Part shown: positions 8,625 through 41,351 of the stretch, one piece after another
Numbering within the stretch: the stretch's first letter is position 1
Layout of the letters: each line of letters opens with the position of its first letter
Position numbers and translations under genes: made by a program
The notes under the pieces: generated by a model
What the model was told of the DNA's origin: nothing
Databases searched by the model: none
Seen by the model: the letters and a program-made list of their open reading frames with translations, nothing else
DNA from: a virus
Strand: one strand, 5' to 3'
Virus record (IMG/VR): IMGVR_UViG_3300033153_001808
Coordinates: 1 to 61,947 of that record
Length of the DNA: 61,947 bases

Positions 8625-8900
8625 ATGGATACAGTAAGCGTAGAAGTTAAATCTAAGGGCCAGGTTTTAGGGTCATTCGACTATGAAGCACCGGTGGATT
8701 TGTCCGAGGCCATTGATGTTGATGGTGAGGAAAAGATCTTTAAACTCTATGCACAACAGCGGAAGATCGCATTTCTTAATGCAAAGCGCAGGGAGTTGAC
8801 CGGTGGTGGTCTGCCCAAGGCGTTGGTACAGGCACTCAAGGACGCAGATCCTGATGTGTTGAAGAAGATCGCCGCAGAAATGGGGTTGGATCTGGAGTAG
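8625..8900 (+). CDS. Hypothetical protein after SSB
   Basis: This 91-residue protein has a beta-rich first third (VEVKSKGQVLGSFDYEAP) and then helices with LKKIAAEMGLDLE. I do not recognise it. GGAGAT lies upstream of the ATG. Its stop is followed within ten bases by the first stem of a large structured RNA region. Confidence 0.65.
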   Translation: MDTVSVEVKSKGQVLGSFDYEAPVDLSEAIDVDGEEKIFKLYAQQRKIAFLNAKRRELTGGGLPKALVQALKDADPDVLKKIAAEMGLDLE

Positions 8901-8908
8901 GTAGATAT

Positions 8909-9259
8909 GTGATAAAGTCCATGCCTTTGGGATTGCGGGGAGTTTGAAAAAAACCTCTGAGGAAGGTATCACGCAACCGCAACTTTGACTTTATCACTTT
9001 AACTTTGTGGGGATGCTTTGTATCGTGAGGTATAGAGGAGAAGTGGTGTGGTAGACTACATCTTTGATCACATCCCCACAATAAATCTTGTGCAATTAAC
9101 TGGCTGAGGGTCTACAAGATCTTAGGATGGTTAAATAAGCCGTAGATGTGAGGTAAGGGGACCATTGTAGGCTAGTTAGTTGCACATCTTAATTGTGGCA
9201 GTGTCCCGAACTATCGGATCTAATGTCTTTTGGGGGCGAAAGTATCCGAGCTGCCACAA
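8909..9259 (+). ncRNA. Large structured RNA region, four consecutive long-stem domains
   Basis: The 384-base gap has no credible plus-strand gene but contains four successive long complementary arms. They are 8909-8919 with 8987-8997 (11 perfect pairs), 9005-9015 with 9071-9081 (11 perfect), 9089-9101 with 9174-9186 (13, one G-T), and 9193-9201 with 9251-9259 (9 perfect). Nested pairs include TTGCGG/CCGCAA (8933, 8977), GTCTAC/GTAGAT (9110, 9142) and TCGGAT/ATCCGA (9214, 9244). Each domain is 67-98 bases. No T-loop or anticodon arm is seen, so these are not tRNAs. I do not match it to a known RNA family. It could be a stable ncRNA or a long leader for the gene at 9285. Confidence 0.75.
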
Positions 9260-9284
9260 CAACAACTAACAGGAGGACTTAAAG

Positions 9285-9491
9285 ATGCCTTTATTTGAAG
9301 TAGCTATATTAGAAGAACCAACAAAGAAAGATCGTGAGGAAGAAGGAATTATAGAGAAACTAGTCTTTGGTCCCACAGCAGTAGTGGCCAGGGACTCACA
9401 ATCTGCCGGAATTAGTGCGGTCTTAGACTGTGCCGCAGAGATTCAGGTTGACCGTAGCCGGATGCAGGTATTAGTACGCCCTTTCGGTTAA
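9285..9491 (+). CDS. Small conserved phage protein with -1 frameshift site at 3' end
   Basis: This 68-residue protein starts MPLFEVAILEEPTKKD and ends MQVLVRPFG, a pattern I recognise as a small phage protein of unknown function. It has two parts: a beta strand start and an alpha/beta middle with AVVARDSQSAGISAVL. AACAGGAGGAC precedes the ATG. Two codons before the stop lies the heptamer C-CCT-TTC, a canonical -1 slippery sequence in the correct frame, and the -1 frame then stays open for 82 codons. The gene thus probably makes a short form and a long form. Confidence 0.75.
   Translation: MPLFEVAILEEPTKKDREEEGIIEKLVFGPTAVVARDSQSAGISAVLDCAAEIQVDRSRMQVLVRPFG
9479..9485 (+). promoter_or_regulatory. 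Putative -1 ribosomal frameshift slippery heptamer
   Basis: CCCTTTC fits X-XXY-YYZ exactly: zero-frame codons are CGC, CCT, TTC, and slipping back one base re-pairs CCC and TTT. The zero-frame stop (TAA, 9489-9491) follows within two codons, and the -1 frame is open to 9731. I see no obvious strong hairpin directly after it. Confidence 0.6.
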
Positions 9492-9733
9492 AGGAACTAT
9501 CCGATAAGAATAGTGGAACATCAGGTGCAAGTGGGTTAAGTGGTGCGAGTGGTAGTAGTGGATCACAAGGTATTCAGGAGTGGTCTTCTGAGGTTGATTT
9601 CGACAGACAACAAGAACACGAGAGTGCCTCAAACCTATACTACCAACACACTCCAAACACATCAGGGGTGATGACAGTATTAAGTGATCAACCAGTCACA
9701 ACTTACTCAGCAAGTAGTTTAGGTGTTGACTAA
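9485..9733 (+). CDS. Frameshift extension with Gly-Xaa-Yaa repeats
   Basis: This 82-codon open frame has no usable start codon or ribosome binding site and joins the previous gene in the -1 frame. It reads RLKELSDKNS, then six Gly-Xaa-Yaa triplets (GTSGASGLSGASGSSG), then an acidic/polar domain with VDFDRQQEHESASN and VTTYSASSLGVD. The triplets are the same kind as in the large repeat fibre at 31395-34571. The fused long form would be about 149 residues. A sequencing error that split one gene is the alternative. Confidence 0.6.
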   Translation, partial: RLKELSDKNSGTSGASGLSGASGSSGSQGIQEWSSEVDFDRQQEHESASNLYYQHTPNTSGVMTVLSDQPVTTYSASSLGVD

Positions 9734-9737
9734 TAAA

Positions 9738-9767
9738 GGTATGGTGTATAGAAATGTACACCATACC
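9738..9767 (+). terminator. Strong hairpin after frameshift gene
   Basis: GGTATGGTGTA (9738-9748) pairs perfectly with TACACCATACC (9757-9767) around an eight-base loop. No run of T follows, so it is not a classic intrinsic terminator. It sits between the frameshift stop and the second dyad element and may end, process or protect the upstream RNA. Confidence 0.5.
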
Positions 9768-9768
9768 A

Positions 9769-9781
9769 TTCATTTAATGAA
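9769..9781 (+). promoter_or_regulatory. Dispersed dyad element, copy 2
   Basis: TTCATTTAATGAA is identical to copy 1 and lies right after a strong hairpin and 17 bases before the ATG at 9799. The gap is short, so the site is placed between the end of one RNA unit and the start of the next gene. Confidence 0.55.
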
Positions 9782-9798
9782 CCGAAGGAGACTACATC

Positions 9799-10152
9799 AT
9801 GTTAGGTATTCTAGGACTATATATCTTATTGACCGGGATTCCGACCACACTCAACCACGAGATCAAGGTGACAGTAACTGCATACTCACCGGATGAACAC
9901 CAGACAGACTCTACACCTCTGCTTACAGCATCACAGAAAAGAGTATCTACTAAGTATGTAGCCCTGAGTAGGGATCTGGAGAGTGAGTATGGATTAAATT
10001 TCGGGGATTCTGTTATCTTGAACGGAGTAGAGTATGAGTTCCAAGACAGGATGAATAAGAAGTGGACTAAGAGAGTAGATAGGTTCTTTTGGAGTCGTGC
10101 AGAAGCACTACAGTTTGGTAAACAAGACGGAGTATTGGAGGTAGTAAGATGA
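9799..10152 (+). CDS. 3D-domain protein with N-terminal hydrophobic segment
   Basis: The first 18 of 117 residues are hydrophobic (LGILGLYILLTGIPTTL) and may be a signal or anchor. The rest follows the 3D domain (double-psi barrel) seen in MltA-type lytic transglycosylases and Sps/YocH proteins: VTAYSPDEHQTDSTP, then FGDSVILNG, FQDRM, and RVDRFFWSRAEALQFG. The conserved aspartates are present. It may cleave peptidoglycan and help lysis or entry; no other obvious endolysin was found in the window. GAAGGAGAC precedes the ATG. Confidence 0.7.
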   Translation: MLGILGLYILLTGIPTTLNHEIKVTVTAYSPDEHQTDSTPLLTASQKRVSTKYVALSRDLESEYGLNFGDSVILNGVEYEFQDRMNKKWTKRVDRFFWSRAEALQFGKQDGVLEVVR

Positions 10153-10313
10153 AAGATATTTTTAGTACTACAAAACTAACATCGGACCAGAAGTTGAGAT
10201 TAATGACACAGGCAATTAATTATGTACATATTCGACTTGGGTATAATGAAAAGCCAGTGTTGTCTGAGGTGTATAAAGAAATGTTTGAACTTATTACGGA
10301 GGACAATAAGTGA
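10149..10313 (+). CDS. Small helical protein
   Basis: This 54-residue protein, probably three helices (SDQKLRLMTQAINYVHIRL), lies between the 3D-domain gene and the ParB-methyltransferase. ATGA and GTGA overlaps join it to both, so the three are co-translated. Function unknown. Confidence 0.6.
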   Translation: MKDIFSTTKLTSDQKLRLMTQAINYVHIRLGYNEKPVLSEVYKEMFELITEDNK

Positions 10314-11560
10314 AACTCCCCATAGCAGACATAAACATAGAACACCGCATAAGAACATTTTTCGATCCAAAGAAACTAGACGAACTAGCAGAATCCATGC
10401 GGACGGTAGGTCTTATAGAACCTGTGGTAGTAGACGAAGACCATAATTTATTGGCAGGTGAGCGTAGGATAAAAGCAGCCCGGTCTTTGGGGTGGACAGA
10501 GATAACTACGGTCTATCTCAAGGACTTGAACCAGTGGCAGAAGAAGATAGTTGAACTGGAGGAGAATCTAAGGAGAGAAGAACTCACCTATGTAGAGGAA
10601 GTCAACGCAAAGGAGAGGATACATGAACTATACCAAGAAAAATACGGAAAGACAGCTCCAACAGGAGGAAGAAAGGGTGGTTGGAAAGTTAAAGATACTG
10701 CTGAACACCTTGGAATCAGCGCGGGAGCAGTTAGTCAAGACCTCCAACTTGCAAGAGCAATTAAACAAGATCCTGAACTTGGTAAACAAAAGACCAAAAT
10801 AGCCGCCAGGAGTATGATGCAAAGGAAGCAGACTATTAAGGCCCGACAACTCATGGTGGTGTTGAGTGCGGTTAAGAAACCTAAACAGGAACAGAAGTCT
10901 TTATTTCCCGCGCCTGTGGATTCCATACAACTCCTACATGGAAAAGCAGAGGTCATAATACCAACCTTAGCAGACAACTCCATAGACTGCCTAATAACAG
11001 ACCCGCCTTGGCAAGTAGAGTATGACAAAGAATTTGGGTCAGATCCACAAGCTGGTCTTGTCTTGACACAGAAAGTCCTGGCACTTCTATACCCTAAGCT
11101 AAAATCCGGGTCTCTATGTTGGATGTTCTGTGCTACCAAACACCTCATGAAGGGTACTATATATGAACTTGTCATGTCATGTGGGTATAGAATATTCGAA
11201 CAGGTTCTTATCTGGTACAAGCCTCATGTAGCACATAGCTCACATCCATATAGGGAGTTGAAGAATGACTATGAACCGGCACTATTCTTCTCAAAGGACG
11301 AACCTCGTGACTTAATAAAACCTATGTTCGCAGTTCAGGAAGCTAAGTTGATTGGGCAGAAGCTACATCCCGCACAGAAACCTACAGAAGTACTACAGAC
11401 TTTGATCTATAATTCTACTGTAGAAGGGGAGACTGTATGCGATCCATTTATGGGAAGTGGGAGTGTGTGTCAAGCGGCAAAAAAGACGGGCCGTAAAGCT
11501 ATAGGTATTGAGAAGGAACAGGAGTGGTATGATCTTGCGGTTGGAACTGTTGGAGTATAG
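10310..11560 (+). CDS. ParB-like domain fused to DNA methyltransferase
   Basis: The 416 residues form two parts. Residues 3-185 are ParB-N-like, with LAGERRIKAA at 48-57, followed by a KorB-type helix-turn-helix around 125-150 (DTAEHLGISAGAVSQDL). Residues 205-416 are an N6-adenine/N4-cytosine methyltransferase of the beta order: catalytic DPPW at 231-234 comes before the SAM-binding CDPFMGSGS at 377-385. This fusion is widespread in phages and prophages, where it is taken to protect phage DNA or direct methylation. Translation starts at GTG (10310) with GGAGG upstream. Confidence 0.88.
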   Translation: MKLPIADINIEHRIRTFFDPKKLDELAESMRTVGLIEPVVVDEDHNLLAGERRIKAARSLGWTEITTVYLKDLNQWQKKIVELEENLRREELTYVEEVNAKERIHELYQEKYGKTAPTGGRKGGWKVKDTAEHLGISAGAVSQDLQLARAIKQDPELGKQKTKIAARSMMQRKQTIKARQLMVVLSAVKKPKQEQKSLFPAPVDSIQLLHGKAEVIIPTLADNSIDCLITDPPWQVEYDKEFGSDPQAGLVLTQKVLALLYPKLKSGSLCWMFCATKHLMKGTIYELVMSCGYRIFEQVLIWYKPHVAHSSHPYRELKNDYEPALFFSKDEPRDLIKPMFAVQEAKLIGQKLHPAQKPTEVLQTLIYNSTVEGETVCDPFMGSGSVCQAAKKTGRKAIGIEKEQEWYDLAVGTVGV

Positions 11561-34583: not shown

Positions 34584-37500
34584 TTAAACTATGTTTGTAA
34601 GAATCTCACCAACAGCCTTTATTACAGTCTCAGGTTTGATGTTTTTACTGCACTCAAAATCCTTATTCTTAGGACACCAAGCCCAATTATCACGAGCAAA
34701 TGTCACACTACTATCATTAAAACACCCATGACAAACATCTTTGTTTATAATCCTATGATTACCAGATTGAAATTCACAAAACGGTTCACTGAAACCAGAG
34801 ACCATAACGACTGGCGTGTTGACCGCCCAACTTAACCAACTAAGACCAGAACCTACACCTAAAAACATTTTTGCTTTGGCTAACACATCTGCTACTTGAG
34901 TAATAGGTGAAGTATGTATTGGTGTGACATTCTTTAACTCTGTTCCTTCTTTGCCTATGGTTAAAACCTCTAAACCCTGCGAGGTTATATAATCAACCAC
35001 CTCTTGCCATCCACCTACATAGTTCCAATACTTAGCTTGCATAGTAGAATGTTCCGACAAGCATACATAATCTTTAGGTAATTTATGTTGATACTCACTC
35101 ATGGAAATTTTAGGTTTTAGTTCTTTATACTCCAATCCTAACATATCTGTGCCTACTTGCTGTAAAGGCACCGAGTTCCACGGATGTTTATTCTTATCAC
35201 TATCTCCATCAAAGACACCAACACCAAAAGACGCATATATATTAGGGGCAACGTCGCCAACCTTGGTGAAGTCTATATTAGGATACACAGATTCAAACAA
35301 CTCATTCCACCAAGTAGCTGTTACAATACTACATTTATGTTCTTTTGCAAATGCTTCAAGATAAGGAAACCAAGCAATAGTATCACCTAAAGACTTACTA
35401 TCCATCCAAATTAAGACACGTTGTCCTATTGGATCGAATCTATGTGAAACTAATGTTTTATCAGTCTTGGTGTCTGTTACTCTAACTAGCCAATTACTGC
35501 AATACTTCCGACCAGGTCTAGCCCATTCACCACTACCTAAGATAGTACCATACATAGACCTACCAATATCTGAGTCAACAAAGTCAACCTTGTATTGACC
35601 ACCATTTGGACCTTGAACTTCACAATACGGACCATCTACAAAATGTACAGTTACATCTACATTATCGCTTCTACATAAATACAACATCTGTATGTGGTCA
35701 TTATCACCAAGGTATAATGTATAAGCAGAAAATCCGGCATTTGTTAGTCTGGTCAATAACTCAGTTCTCAATTCTGCTTTGAAGTCAAACAACATATTAT
35801 GATATTCTATACATATTTTTTGTACCTTAGCAAGATTATCGTCTGACAAACCAGCAAATAAATCCAACTCCGAACCTTCTATATCTACCTTTAAGTAATT
35901 AATCACATCCAGACCAAGCTCTCCAATCATGTGATCTAATGTGACTAGTTCTATTTGAACTGACTCACCTGTTTTAGTGTTATTTATATTATTATCTTTT
36001 ACACTATGTCCGCCCTCACAAGAGTGGATAAAAAGCTCTGAAATTCCGGCTTTGTTGGATATACCCAACTCTGATTTCCATGACTCCACATTCTTCTCCA
36101 AAGCACTATAATTATCTGGCTCTGGTTCAAAAGAATATACCTCACTAGCACCCATTTCTTTTGCGTATCGTGCAAATACACCTATATTACCACCACAATC
36201 TACTACAACATCCCCAGGTTCTATTTTACATCTACCATGTTCGTATGTCTTATCAACAAAGATCTCATGATATACACCACTAAAAGTATCAATTCCATCG
36301 ACAGATATATCAACAGGCTCAGTAGAATTTGGCAAATAATACTTAGTTCTTTCTAACTCAACCTTTTCAGTAGGCACTAAATACCTCTCGTACATTTCCT
36401 TTAATACCTTAGGATCATGTTGACAGTGCATTAACCACACACCAGACTTTTCTGGAATGTGTATATGTTCTGATAACCCACCTGCCAACACTGGCATGTA
36501 TTCACTGTAACTTTCTTGCCACTCTGCTGTGAAGAACTTATCAAAATACTTAGGCCAATATATGTCATAGATATGAACTCCTAATTGTTCTGTGGCTTCA
36601 TACTTCCATAGCATTAAGTTCATAAAAATCTCATCACCTAAAGGGCCGGACTTTTCTACCAACTCCTCAGGGGTAAGTTCATCTTTCCACTTCAGTACAT
36701 CTAACATGAATTGCTTACAGTTCTTATCAAACAAGAACATACAAGCCTGTACCCAAGGAGACATAGACCTCTCAGAGATTCCGAATTTTGTCTTTAGTTC
36801 CTCAAACCCAGGTGCTGGTATACCATTAGTTTGTACAACTACATGGTCATAGATATGCGAGGCAAAAAGCGGGTAATTATTTAACCTACCTACAGAGTCC
36901 CATATCCTGTCTATGCTTTCCGTACAAAAACTATCCCCATCTATCCAAGCATAATGACTACCTTCCACATTCTCTATTGCGTCTAGACCACATAATAATT
37001 TACAAAAATAAGAATCAACTGCTCGACCATCAGGCAGGGTAGCTTTTGAGGTAAAATCAATACGTCTTTTCTGCATACGTGGTAAGTCAAAAGGTATATC
37101 ACAACCAAAACCATAAACCACGATCTGTGCAGTAGAAAATTTCAACAGACTACTAACACAAGTTTCAATCAAAGGCATATAATTTGAATCACCACCAAGA
37201 ACAAATACAGGCTTCAAGGACTTTGCAATAGTAAAACCACCTACAATATCCTCGCAGACGTAGTCCTTTGTTAACATATGAAAGAAGCCAATTTCTGTAT
37301 TGTCAACCAGAGTTAGCTTTCCATCAAGCCATGTTGCGTTATCTTGTGTCTTCTCGTGTTGGAAGTTCTGTCCATTTAGTATTATCTCAAGTTTTACATC
37401 CTCTTCAATAAGTTTATCACTCCACATACTTTCATCAAAGTTAGTGTACTTGTCTGTCTCATCAAGCATGGATTGAAAACCAGGGGTGGAAGCATATAAC

Positions 37501-40500
37501 TCCCGCATCTTGGGTGTGTTATGTACTAGAGTACAAGGCCCGGCAACTCTATAATGCAGTCCGTCTTTGGTTGAACCACCAAAAGTAATCACATCGTAGT
37601 CTTGTTCCATATACTTATTAAAGAATCCATCCAACTTACCCCAAATAACATCAAGATCACAGAAACCCCAATAATCATAATCTTTGAGATACCCATCATA
37701 AATATGTCCATATAAAGGTTTATAATCACACAACTTATACGACACACCTATACGCACTTTATGGTCTATTGTACGACTAGCAAGTTGTTCAAATGATAAT
37801 TTAGTCTGGTCTATAAAACTAACATTCTCTGGATACTCATGTGGAGCCTGTTGATCACTAAATATCAACCAATCAAACTCTGGATTCTCAGCACAAGAAC
37901 ATAAGAACATATAAAACCAATCAGGAAAGGGTCCAAGCCAAGTAACCACAAATGCTGCTTTTTGTTGATTGTTTAAATCATCAACTAATTCGTCCAACAA
38001 TTCCCCGCCATTTCCGTTGCCATGCCACACCAAGGTCTGCTTGTTTACTTCATCTTTGGTTGTATTACCCAGTGTTTGAAACATCTCACAATCTACATCT
38101 CTGATAATCTTATGACCATTAGCCATAAAATATTTAGTCAACAACCACTGATCGTTTCTACCATATAAGCCACCCTCTGTACCTAGTAAAGCCTCTGGTA
38201 GTTTGGTATACTTATCTACCATCGTATTTAGTGCATTATAAATAACACCAGCCGGACCCATATAAGTGCCGGAATTTACATACCTAAACTTCTCCTCTCC
38301 AGGTGGGTAGTTCTCAGCTAGACTCCTATCTGGATACAGATTCTTTTCAGCACCTACAACAATATACGACTCTGGTACTGCTTTCGTGTACACAGACGTG
38401 TTTTTATCTGCTTGTCTGTGATAAGCCTGTATTAACTCAGTCTCATTTCCTAGTAAGTAACTATCAAAACCATCCAAGAATAGTACCAACTGCTTCTTAG
38501 GCAGAGTTGAAACATAATCCCTCATGTGGATGAACTTGGTTATAAAATCTCCCCACTCTACTCCAGCACCCAAGACCTCAAGCTCCATACCTTGTGCTGT
38601 GACAGACTCAACCAACCTATCAAGCCCGGAGTTTGTATGATTAGCGAATGTAACAACCTTTAATAACTTAGCTCCACTATCAGACTCTCTACTAAACGTA
38701 GCCTGTGAAGCAAAATCAAACAAAGGCAAGTCAAACATACGCCTAAAGCAGACCTTATTATTATGAGAAACCGTCAACACTTCACCCTTTTGATACTTAT
38801 TCTGTAGTTCTTCTAATCCAACACTACCAGGCTCAACACTCAACTCTAACCTCTCACCAGAATATTCAACCACACAGTCAAGCCTCTTAGCCCCACGATT
38901 ATCTATACCTATAACCATAGCACCAACATAATTAGCACCTATTGAATAAGTCACATCTACCATAGTATCTACTTCCCGTGCAGACTCAGAACCACCAAAA
39001 GCTCTCCAACGGTCTATAGCTAACCAATCTTTAGGTCTAGTAGTATTAACCTCCACTGCGTCGTATTTTCTAAATGCCTCTAGTAATGTATACTCTAACT
39101 GAGTAGCAACTAATCTACCAACATAATACTCCTCTGGAGTTTTGTACTCACTAAAAACCTCAAGACCTTTTTTGACTGAAAAAGAGAAAACTCCACTCTC
39201 CATTTCTTCATAAGGTACATGATGATTATTTGGTTTGATATAACATAAATCATTTCCAACCACCGGAGCTATGAGTGTATTCAACCACACATCATTATCT
39301 ATGTCCACGTCATATTCTATATAATGAACATAGTCCTTTGATTTCATTATATCTGTATTCAATGCGTTACGTATATTAGTCCATATAGCATAATCATATA
39401 ACCAAGGAGCCTCTGTGTCTACTCTTAAACCCCCCGATTGAATCCATAATCTTGCATCTAGACTAATTTTATAGTAATCTTCTTTATACATAAGTGGATT
39501 ATGAGAATCAAACACATAATAATCCACATACTGCTGTAACCTACTAGGTATTGGTTTATGTGATACTAACATAACATCAAAGCCTAGAGACTTTGCCTTG
39601 ACTACACGTTCATGAAGTAAATCTTCTTGGGCATCAGATACACACCAAGCACCTATAACAACAATATGTTTCTCAGCTAAACTGACTGCCCAACTAGAGT
39701 CTGAATAATGTTTGAGTTTATACTCACCTAAGGTATTGTCAACCGCTGGCCTGACTCCATCTGCGCCGGGATTTACGTTTCTATGAAAATAGTCATGCCC
39801 ACACATAATACCCTTAGGTTTTAGTTTAGGCATCCACGCTAGTATGTCAGCACACACAGCATCATAATCATGTGCAGCGTCCACATAAACTAAGTCCAAC
39901 GAACTGTCTTCAAACCTCTGTGCAGCAGGAACTGATTGACTTCTGATCTTCTCTACGTTTCCAGCTCTATACTGCATCTGCTCAAACCTAGCTTGTGCCA
40001 TCAAGATATTAGTTATGTCTCCATAACAATCCTGCCATTCGTCAACTCCATAAACCTTCTTAGCTCTAGAGGCAAAGACTTCTGTACTAACTCCACCAAA
40101 ACAACCTAATTCTACCATTACGGTGTCTTTAGTAATATAATCATCCGCAAGTTCAAATAGTCCTGCTGTAGTATTCCACGGAACCATCTCTGTTTCAACA
40201 CCACGCCACTTTATTCTAGATTGAGTACGTAGTCTAGTTTCTTTTTCTGTAGTACTCTCGTCAAAATCCCCGAATTTTTTAATCACACTAAAAGACTTCT
40301 CGGCGGCAGATTCCCACGAGAACCTATCTCTCACTTCACACGAAGCGGCAAGAGCTTCTTGTATACGATTTATATCTATCGGATCACGGACTTGATTATA
40401 CAAACTTCGCATTATTTCTCTCAGATGATTGAAGTCTGGCTCTGCCCACATACCAGGAAACTGACTTCCTACCGGATAGGTCTCCTGTGGTGGTTTCATC

Positions 40501-41351
40501 TCTTTAATACGCACTTTATGCACACCCAACAAATCTCCGGCGTATTCTAGTTGTCCACCAAAATCCGAACATATACTTGGTAATCCACACGCTACTGCTT
40601 CTATAAGGGGTAGATTCCAACCCTCGGCACGAGAACAACTCACAAACACATCACTATATTTTAGATAATCTGCATAAGTATTACGTGGAGGGAAATGTAA
40701 AATTTCCAACTTAGGACTCATCAAGCCATGATGTTCTAAGCGTTCTTCTGTAGTCTCAAACCCATCTATAGAGAAACTATTATCTACAGAAATAGCCATA
40801 CCTACATTGGTGTCGCGTTCAAACTCAACCAAAAAAGCCTGGATAATCTCCGTAGTGCTTTTCCTATATTCCCACCTACCAAAAAGCAGAAACCTAAAAT
40901 CATCTGTTCTGCCATTCATAGGTTGGAATAACTCTCCATCAACACCTTCTGGTATAACCTTGACCCGATCTTCTGGGTATCCTTGGTCTATACTACATTG
41001 TCTCTGCCACTCACTAGGAACCCATAATTGGTCATACTCTAACAACCTAGCAAAGAACTCATCTGGTTGACGTGTACTTTCCCATACATTGTAAGCTATT
41101 TTTGGGCTTGGTATATCCTCATAAAAAACCGGGTGACCAGTTACCTCCAAGACAATATGTAAAACATTTGAACCAATTATCCTATTAATCATTTCCTGTT
41201 GTTCATCAGACAACTCAGTCGTATCATCAACTGTTGTACTCACGATACCTACAGGAACAAACTTATTGAGAGCAGTAAAAAACTCTCGCGCATGGTTGGC
41301 ATATCCTGTATGCCCCATGAAACTTGTATGTCCTAACACTAAATCGTACAT
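34584..41351 (-). CDS. Eight-module glycosyltransferase/methyltransferase megaprotein
   Basis: The 2255 residues are an assembly line. (1) 1-365: GT4-type transferase (AYNVWESTRQPDEFF, IPEGVDGELF, FVSCSRAEGWNLPLIEAVAC). (2) 380-555: SAM methyltransferase (VELGCFGG 413-420; YVDAAHDYDA). (3) 560-790: transferase-like region with EYDVDID at 679-685. (4) 895-1110: PLOD-type glycosyltransferase (LFLDGFDS 957-964; YVNSGTYMGP). (5) 1130-1375: DUF6625-like (GFCDLDVIWG). (6) 1378-1655: GT-A-like (YAWIDGDSF). (7) 1680-1895: FkbM methyltransferase (VVDCGGNIGVF, FEPEP, LKVDIEGSE). (8) 1898-2255: TibC/Aah-type O-heptosyltransferase (FVDGPY, WARPGRKY, SLGDTIAWFPY; iron-finger cysteines 2207, 2210, 2226, 2234). 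GGAGG precedes the ATG. It lies 12 bases before the Ser/Thr-rich fibre, its likely substrate (inference). Confidence 0.88.
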   Translation of the reverse strand: MYDLVLGHTSFMGHTGYANHAREFFTALNKFVPVGIVSTTVDDTTELSDEQQEMINRIIGSNVLHIVLEVTGHPVFYEDIPSPKIAYNVWESTRQPDEFFARLLEYDQLWVPSEWQRQCSIDQGYPEDRVKVIPEGVDGELFQPMNGRTDDFRFLLFGRWEYRKSTTEIIQAFLVEFERDTNVGMAISVDNSFSIDGFETTEERLEHHGLMSPKLEILHFPPRNTYADYLKYSDVFVSCSRAEGWNLPLIEAVACGLPSICSDFGGQLEYAGDLLGVHKVRIKEMKPPQETYPVGSQFPGMWAEPDFNHLREIMRSLYNQVRDPIDINRIQEALAASCEVRDRFSWESAAEKSFSVIKKFGDFDESTTEKETRLRTQSRIKWRGVETEMVPWNTTAGLFELADDYITKDTVMVELGCFGGVSTEVFASRAKKVYGVDEWQDCYGDITNILMAQARFEQMQYRAGNVEKIRSQSVPAAQRFEDSSLDLVYVDAAHDYDAVCADILAWMPKLKPKGIMCGHDYFHRNVNPGADGVRPAVDNTLGEYKLKHYSDSSWAVSLAEKHIVVIGAWCVSDAQEDLLHERVVKAKSLGFDVMLVSHKPIPSRLQQYVDYYVFDSHNPLMYKEDYYKISLDARLWIQSGGLRVDTEAPWLYDYAIWTNIRNALNTDIMKSKDYVHYIEYDVDIDNDVWLNTLIAPVVGNDLCYIKPNNHHVPYEEMESGVFSFSVKKGLEVFSEYKTPEEYYVGRLVATQLEYTLLEAFRKYDAVEVNTTRPKDWLAIDRWRAFGGSESAREVDTMVDVTYSIGANYVGAMVIGIDNRGAKRLDCVVEYSGERLELSVEPGSVGLEELQNKYQKGEVLTVSHNNKVCFRRMFDLPLFDFASQATFSRESDSGAKLLKVVTFANHTNSGLDRLVESVTAQGMELEVLGAGVEWGDFITKFIHMRDYVSTLPKKQLVLFLDGFDSYLLGNETELIQAYHRQADKNTSVYTKAVPESYIVVGAEKNLYPDRSLAENYPPGEEKFRYVNSGTYMGPAGVIYNALNTMVDKYTKLPEALLGTEGGLYGRNDQWLLTKYFMANGHKIIRDVDCEMFQTLGNTTKDEVNKQTLVWHGNGNGGELLDELVDDLNNQQKAAFVVTWLGPFPDWFYMFLCSCAENPEFDWLIFSDQQAPHEYPENVSFIDQTKLSFEQLASRTIDHKVRIGVSYKLCDYKPLYGHIYDGYLKDYDYWGFCDLDVIWGKLDGFFNKYMEQDYDVITFGGSTKDGLHYRVAGPCTLVHNTPKMRELYASTPGFQSMLDETDKYTNFDESMWSDKLIEEDVKLEIILNGQNFQHEKTQDNATWLDGKLTLVDNTEIGFFHMLTKDYVCEDIVGGFTIAKSLKPVFVLGGDSNYMPLIETCVSSLLKFSTAQIVVYGFGCDIPFDLPRMQKRRIDFTSKATLPDGRAVDSYFCKLLCGLDAIENVEGSHYAWIDGDSFCTESIDRIWDSVGRLNNYPLFASHIYDHVVVQTNGIPAPGFEELKTKFGISERSMSPWVQACMFLFDKNCKQFMLDVLKWKDELTPEELVEKSGPLGDEIFMNLMLWKYEATEQLGVHIYDIYWPKYFDKFFTAEWQESYSEYMPVLAGGLSEHIHIPEKSGVWLMHCQHDPKVLKEMYERYLVPTEKVELERTKYYLPNSTEPVDISVDGIDTFSGVYHEIFVDKTYEHGRCKIEPGDVVVDCGGNIGVFARYAKEMGASEVYSFEPEPDNYSALEKNVESWKSELGISNKAGISELFIHSCEGGHSVKDNNINNTKTGESVQIELVTLDHMIGELGLDVINYLKVDIEGSELDLFAGLSDDNLAKVQKICIEYHNMLFDFKAELRTELLTRLTNAGFSAYTLYLGDNDHIQMLYLCRSDNVDVTVHFVDGPYCEVQGPNGGQYKVDFVDSDIGRSMYGTILGSGEWARPGRKYCSNWLVRVTDTKTDKTLVSHRFDPIGQRVLIWMDSKSLGDTIAWFPYLEAFAKEHKCSIVTATWWNELFESVYPNIDFTKVGDVAPNIYASFGVGVFDGDSDKNKHPWNSVPLQQVGTDMLGLEYKELKPKISMSEYQHKLPKDYVCLSEHSTMQAKYWNYVGGWQEVVDYITSQGLEVLTIGKEGTELKNVTPIHTSPITQVADVLAKAKMFLGVGSGLSWLSWAVNTPVVMVSGFSEPFCEFQSGNHRIINKDVCHGCFNDSSVTFARDNWAWCPKNKDFECSKNIKPETVIKAVGEILTNIV

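Follow-up and report, generated by a model that had tools for sequence, protein, structure and literature searches.

A conserved slippery site and a -1 frame tail point to programmed ribosomal frameshifting in a small phage gene family

The viral record IMGVR_UViG_3300033153_001808 of IMG/VR contains a small gene of 68 codons, which starts with an ATG at 9285 and ends ...GTA TTA GTA CGC CCT TTC GGT TAA (Table 1; the window is the whole stretch analysed, positions 1 to 61,947 of that record). The CCCTTTC heptamer at its 3' end lies in X_XXY_YYZ phase, and the single codon GGT separates it from the 0-frame stop. The -1 frame is open from the CCC of the heptamer to a TAA at 9731–9733, that is, for 84 codons with Pro-Phe and 82 after them. 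The closest -1 frame stop on the 5' side is 24 nt from the heptamer, with no ATG, GTG or TTG in between. The original prediction of a programmed -1 frameshift at this place was correct as to the perfect heptamer, its phase and its position near the stop, and as to the length of the open frame. It also gave the -1 frame no start codon of its own, which is right until the last quarter of the tail, where GTG and ATG stand at codons 63 and 64. The -1 frame product reads PFRLKELSDKNSGTSGASGLSGASGSSGSQG...VTTYSASSLGVD, and the predicted long form would have about 149 residues, with ...LVRPFRLKELSDK as the junction peptide.

Table 1. Features of the frameshift gene in the window
Feature	Position	Strand	Basis
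Shine-Dalgarno sequence AGGAGG of the short gene	9271..9276	+	sequence
0-frame gene, 68 aa, short form, ends ...VLVRPF	9285..9491	+	sequence, relatives
Shine-Dalgarno-like AGGT, 9 nt 5' of the slip site (putative stimulator)	9466..9469	+	analogy with dnaX
Slippery heptamer C_CCT_TTC	9479..9485	+	sequence, conservation in relatives, synonymous-codon constraint
-1 frame extension, 82 residues past the slip (coordinates include the stop codon)	9479..9733	+	sequence, relatives
0-frame stop TAA	9489..9491	+	sequence
Collagen-like Gly-X-Y run GTSGASGLSGASGSSGSQGIQ within the tail	9515..9577	+	weak, sub-threshold Pfam collagen match
Conserved C-terminal motif of the tail, VTTYSASSLGVD	9695..9730	+	tail alignment, motif profile

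The coincidence of these features was originally given a low chance. An 82-codon open frame indeed arises in only 0.35% of composition shuffles of that stretch, but the same strand of the window holds 199 X_XXY_YYZ heptamers, and the window evidence by itself is therefore suggestive and not decisive. The support goes past chance because relatives conserve the arrangement.

IMG/VR scans that used the 68-aa protein and its profile as queries yielded 55–65 relatives, with 65 loci in all. Nearly all of these loci (all but a few) end in Arg-Pro-Phe encoded as CGC CCT TTY, usually with the 0-frame stop one codon further on and an open -1 frame. The 735-kb uncultured phage LR756501.1, at first a weak match, has a gene that ends GTG CGC CCT TTT TAA and carries a long collagen-like -1 extension. 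A second subfamily was gathered from the LR756501.1 relative and one DNA-pattern match; its profile aligns to that of subfamily I with an hhalign probability of 98.5 and 27% identity across 64 columns. Subfamily II keeps CCT TTY, with the stop immediately after it and a -1 tail, although two seeds (L101 and L114) came from a DNA pattern that contains the heptamer; its other members came from protein patterns outside the heptamer. In the DNA-pattern search, which is not based on homology, a long -1 tail was present in the three homologous matches and absent in most unrelated RPF-stop matches.

The comparative set comprises 85 distinct homologues of both subfamilies from IMG/VR and huge phages, in independent assemblies. 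Nine loci without a recognisable site (L064, L066, L119–L122, L050, L056 and L033) were left out of the counts over 85 genes; in L064, L066, L050 and L056 the slip site is lost. Tblastn searches of INPHARED with four different members found no isolate-phage relative, the only convincing match being the 735-kb uncultured phage (LR756501/LR756503); Pseudomonas phage Lana was rejected as a relative (E=4). Two scans of bacterial and archaeal genomes likewise found no subfamily I relatives. The distant relative L055 (474–900) has the slip site and a -1 frame of only 26 codons, and its 0 frame stays open for about 60 codons past its TGA. The relative L133 (5001–5204), on a contig with an isolate-style number in its IMG/VR name, has the site A_CCT_TTT, and its -1 frame seems to be part of a downstream gene with its own ATG.

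Constraint on the site is seen at the level of single codons. The Fisher tests treat sequences sharing descent as independent. By these tests, 50 of 51 subfamily I genes have CCT for the site proline, whereas only 9 of the 148 prolines in the rest of those genes are encoded in this way (p~2e-36). Beyond the 0-frame stop, 83 of the 85 genes keep the -1 frame open for 40 codons or more, compared with 29% for the +1 frame and 24% for the 0 frame (p about 1e-22). CGC encodes the site arginine in 49 of the 51 subfamily I genes, and arginine elsewhere in 69 of 125 cases. Eight genes have a base other than C before CCT, so that only TTTT is left for the Phe tRNA to slip on; all eight use TTT rather than TTC, as against 41 of the other 77 (p=0.018 under the same assumption of independence). 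The X_XXY_YYZ heptamer expected for tandem slippage is found in phase near the 0-frame stop and is conserved codon by codon. No -1 frame start codon occurs between the last 5' stop and the heptamer in 78 of the 85 genes.

The tails are under selection as protein. In close pairs of tails dN is below dS in six of six, with dN/dS of about 0.24–0.63, which is the protein-level selection on a downstream -1 frame lacking its own start that is looked for in a -1 frameshift gene. The tails align at their C-terminus on Y....G....(Y/F).A..L, and share a motif of approximately Y-S/N-A-A/S-x-L. Of 32 subfamily II tails, 7 reach more than 5 bits with the motif profile built on subfamily I, as against an average of 0.4 and a maximum of 3 for shuffles. 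When the profile was run against six-frame ORFs of the loci, no other protein was found to carry the motif.

A sequencing error or a decayed gene, in which one former frame has lost or gained a base, could be invoked for any single assembled contig, and an uninterrupted frame in relatives had been named as the sign of it. The junction nevertheless falls at the same codons in 85 distinct genes from independent assemblies, with motifs conserved on both sides of it, and in the relatives the frames are still split, with the codons of the slip site and the -1 tail retained; we regard the chance of such an artefact as negligible. The sole relative in a single frame is L033, which has lost the RPF, the stop and the linker together with the slip site, and in which the domain and the tail motif are read through to ...EVLAATAPRGASTFSATDLMKGA in one frame; no second copy of the gene was found in its record. 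Judged from its sequence, L033 is a natural in-frame fusion, as a real fusion product predicts, and modelling suggests that its motif forms a strand and a short helix beside the domain (pLDDT about 55–72).

Under translational coupling, a ribosome that terminates at the 0-frame stop would begin anew in the -1 frame, and two separate proteins would result. In about a third of the genes the first six -1 codons do include a start, often as GTGA or ATGA overlapping the stop. The earliest start in the window's tail, however, is as late as codon 63, the first start lies past codon 15 in 35 of the 85 genes, and three of the 85 have none. Moreover, reinitiation leaves the fixed CCT codon, the CGC bias and the TTT compensation unexplained, and L033 has the motif and the domain joined in one frame. 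Coupling is thus very improbable.

Elements that could stimulate slippage are found on both sides of the site. In subfamily I, pairing with the anti-Shine-Dalgarno sequence peaks at -6.6 kcal/mol for an 8-mer ending 8–9 nt before the heptamer, compared with about -0.4 to -3.3 kcal/mol further upstream. This peak exceeds synonymous resampling (p=6e-7), and the codon at the peak is GAG rather than GAA in a ratio of 24:1, as against 136:189 elsewhere. In subfamily II its signal is weak (p=0.21). A Shine-Dalgarno spacing of 9–14 nt is given for -1 stimulation in the review of Atkins et al. (PMC5009743), and the AGGT of the window is within that range. On the 3' side, the 55 nt starting 4 nt past the heptamer have a mean folding z of -1.33 compared with -0.20 in a control stretch of the same gene (84 genes, p=8e-6); a stem-loop lies just downstream in many relatives, several of which have long hairpins. 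This enrichment of structure is family-wide and does not extend to the window, where no strong stem-loop was seen just 3' of the heptamer (z of +1.4 over 55 nt and +0.7 over 135 nt) and Rfam gave no match over 8800–10000. For E. coli, the heptamer itself (C_CC.U_UU.C) has been listed as one of those that frameshift at a high level, and H_HH.U_UU.Y as one of the efficient motifs (PMC4066793).

Programmed -1 ribosomal frameshifting is the most probable mode of expression of the gene, at a probability of about 0.92. What the comparison shows is conservation, of the codons at the slip site and the element upstream of them as well as of the open -1 frame and its tail motif; about 80 uncultivated and distantly related phages keep the slip signal. 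The conservation of the heptamer and the -1 frame in related phages, proposed at the outset as a check, was looked for and found, and the slip codons, split frames and -1 tails of the relatives strongly support the frameshift reading. Most ribosomes would read 68 codons and stop at TAA, which would give the short form, and some would move back by one letter shortly before it and append a second part, the independently conserved tail, which would give the long form. Slips would be made more frequent by the AGGT that lies 9 nt upstream and, in numerous relatives, by the downstream stem-loop. Slippage itself and its level we infer from the sequences.

The 68-aa domain has no match in Pfam or PHROGs. 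Its AlphaFold2 model (pLDDT 89.5) has a strand-helix-strand-helix-strand arrangement, and no match at E <= 0.001 was obtained in fold searches of the PDB and BFVD. The best VIA-align Z, 7.6, is to ribosomal protein eL20-like domains and is within the range of unrelated models; eL20, PurS and PaaB, the nearest solved folds, were rejected as fold relatives, the similarity being at chance level. In the searchable literature, which included a minority of the subscription papers and preprints, no description of the family was found under the motif, the heptamer or the protein end.

In the window the gene adjoins Sak4, SSB and a ParB-methyltransferase, the last of which (10310–11557) is a ParB-like domain fused to a DNA methyltransferase, and the portal, terminase and tail-fibre genes are far away on the other strand. 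The relatives differ in their neighbours (RecT, antiterminator Q, terminase, portal, GroEL, helicase, sliding clamp), and the comparison showed no shared neighbour pointing to function. An ORF of at least 450 aa lies within 600 nt 3' of the gene in 8 of 71 copies; those identified are TerL, portal or other proteins and no tape measure. As the neighbours are replication, recombination or packaging genes, a tail-assembly chaperone can be discounted as the product, and so can a coat protein. A lambda-type chaperone is ruled out by the absence of a position between the major tail protein and tape-measure genes, and a frameshifted coat protein by a base protein of 68 aa that has no structural match in PHROGs or Pfam. 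An Ig-like extension was also rejected, the tail's only Pfam match being sub-threshold collagen.

In T7, T3, A2 and A118/A500, a -1 frameshift near the gene end yields a minor product that keeps the N-terminus and is extended at the C-terminus (PMC5009743). A minor extended form with a shared N-terminus is likewise predicted for the window gene, as for 10A/10B of T7/T3 and the coat extensions of A2/A118. Unlike in those phages, the base protein is an undescribed 68-aa domain encoded outside the structural operon, and the extension is a linker with a short motif, in a tail without a Pfam domain above the cut-off. The lambda G/GT system (PMC5009743) is similar in having a short form and a rare -1 extended form kept across distant phages despite sequence divergence, but the present gene is not 5' of a tape-measure gene, has replication, recombination or packaging neighbours, and uses a different slip sequence. 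The layout of E. coli dnaX (PMC5009743) is also similar, with an internal Shine-Dalgarno sequence 9–14 nt upstream, an X_XXY_YYZ heptamer and a downstream stem-loop. In contrast to the present gene, frameshifting in dnaX gives the shorter product, and the window lacks the strong stem-loop.

As to the function, the early guess of a minor virion or regulatory variant is a hypothesis only, as is that of a minor accessory or surface variant; the gene sits outside the morphogenesis operon. If frameshifting occurs, both forms may be early intracellular regulators or nucleic-acid-binding proteins, with a tail that recruits a partner, and not virion parts; this is plausible at somewhat less than even odds. 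The genes adjoining that of the window are in line with it, as are RecT, Q, helicase, sliding clamp and GroEL near the relatives' genes and a predicted fold nearest to eL20/PurS-like small alpha-beta domains, although that match is no better than chance would give. The copies in L003, L016 and L015, directly 5' of terminase or portal genes, speak against it, as do three tails with collagen-like repeats (window, L061 and L067). Such repeats are typical of phage surface proteins, and the three tails give a hint, and only that, of a displayed or fibrous part; kinship of the tail with the window's own collagen-like tail fibre was rejected, as the two show no similarity. More tentatively, and by analogy with T7/T3 10A/10B or lambda G/GT, the short domain of this unrelated protein might be the bulk protein, of which a few long copies would carry the linker and a docking or display tip.

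The mechanism is of a known kind, and the gene family appears to be undescribed within the libraries searched. Dependence on programmed frameshifting is known from few classes of phage gene, and the present family adds an unannotated one. It is somewhat more probable than not that, after the tail chaperones and the extensions of coat or tail-tube proteins, the family represents a third class of programmed frameshift that is widespread in phages: a small domain in many dissimilar uncultivated phages, including the 735-kb one, with a flexible -1 tail whose fixed C-terminal motif is kept regardless of the neighbours. Given the strong comparative support for frameshifting, ordinary gene callers will report a product shorter than the real one. 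The existence of two forms of the protein, the conserved tail motif and the in-frame version in L033 make the function directly testable, and the fixed codon usage is a simple signature for finding the family.

Other features of the window were noted as well. The non-coding stretch 5' of the gene (8900–9290) is predicted to fold very strongly as RNA (-134.5 kcal/mol, z -5.1), with several long stem-loops and no Rfam match. Directly after the tail stop, at 9738–9767, is a perfect 11-bp inverted repeat, GGTATGGTGTA/TACACCATACC, without a T run, which adjoins one copy of a 13-bp element. This element, TTCATTTAATGAA, occurs in four exact copies (at 406, 9769, 31378 and 53238), each shortly 5' of a gene start and pointing in the direction of transcription, and it looks like an operator or leader element. 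At 34587–41351 a protein of 2255 aa is encoded, in which glycosyltransferase, methyltransferase and 2OG-Fe(II) oxygenase families are matched in one chain.
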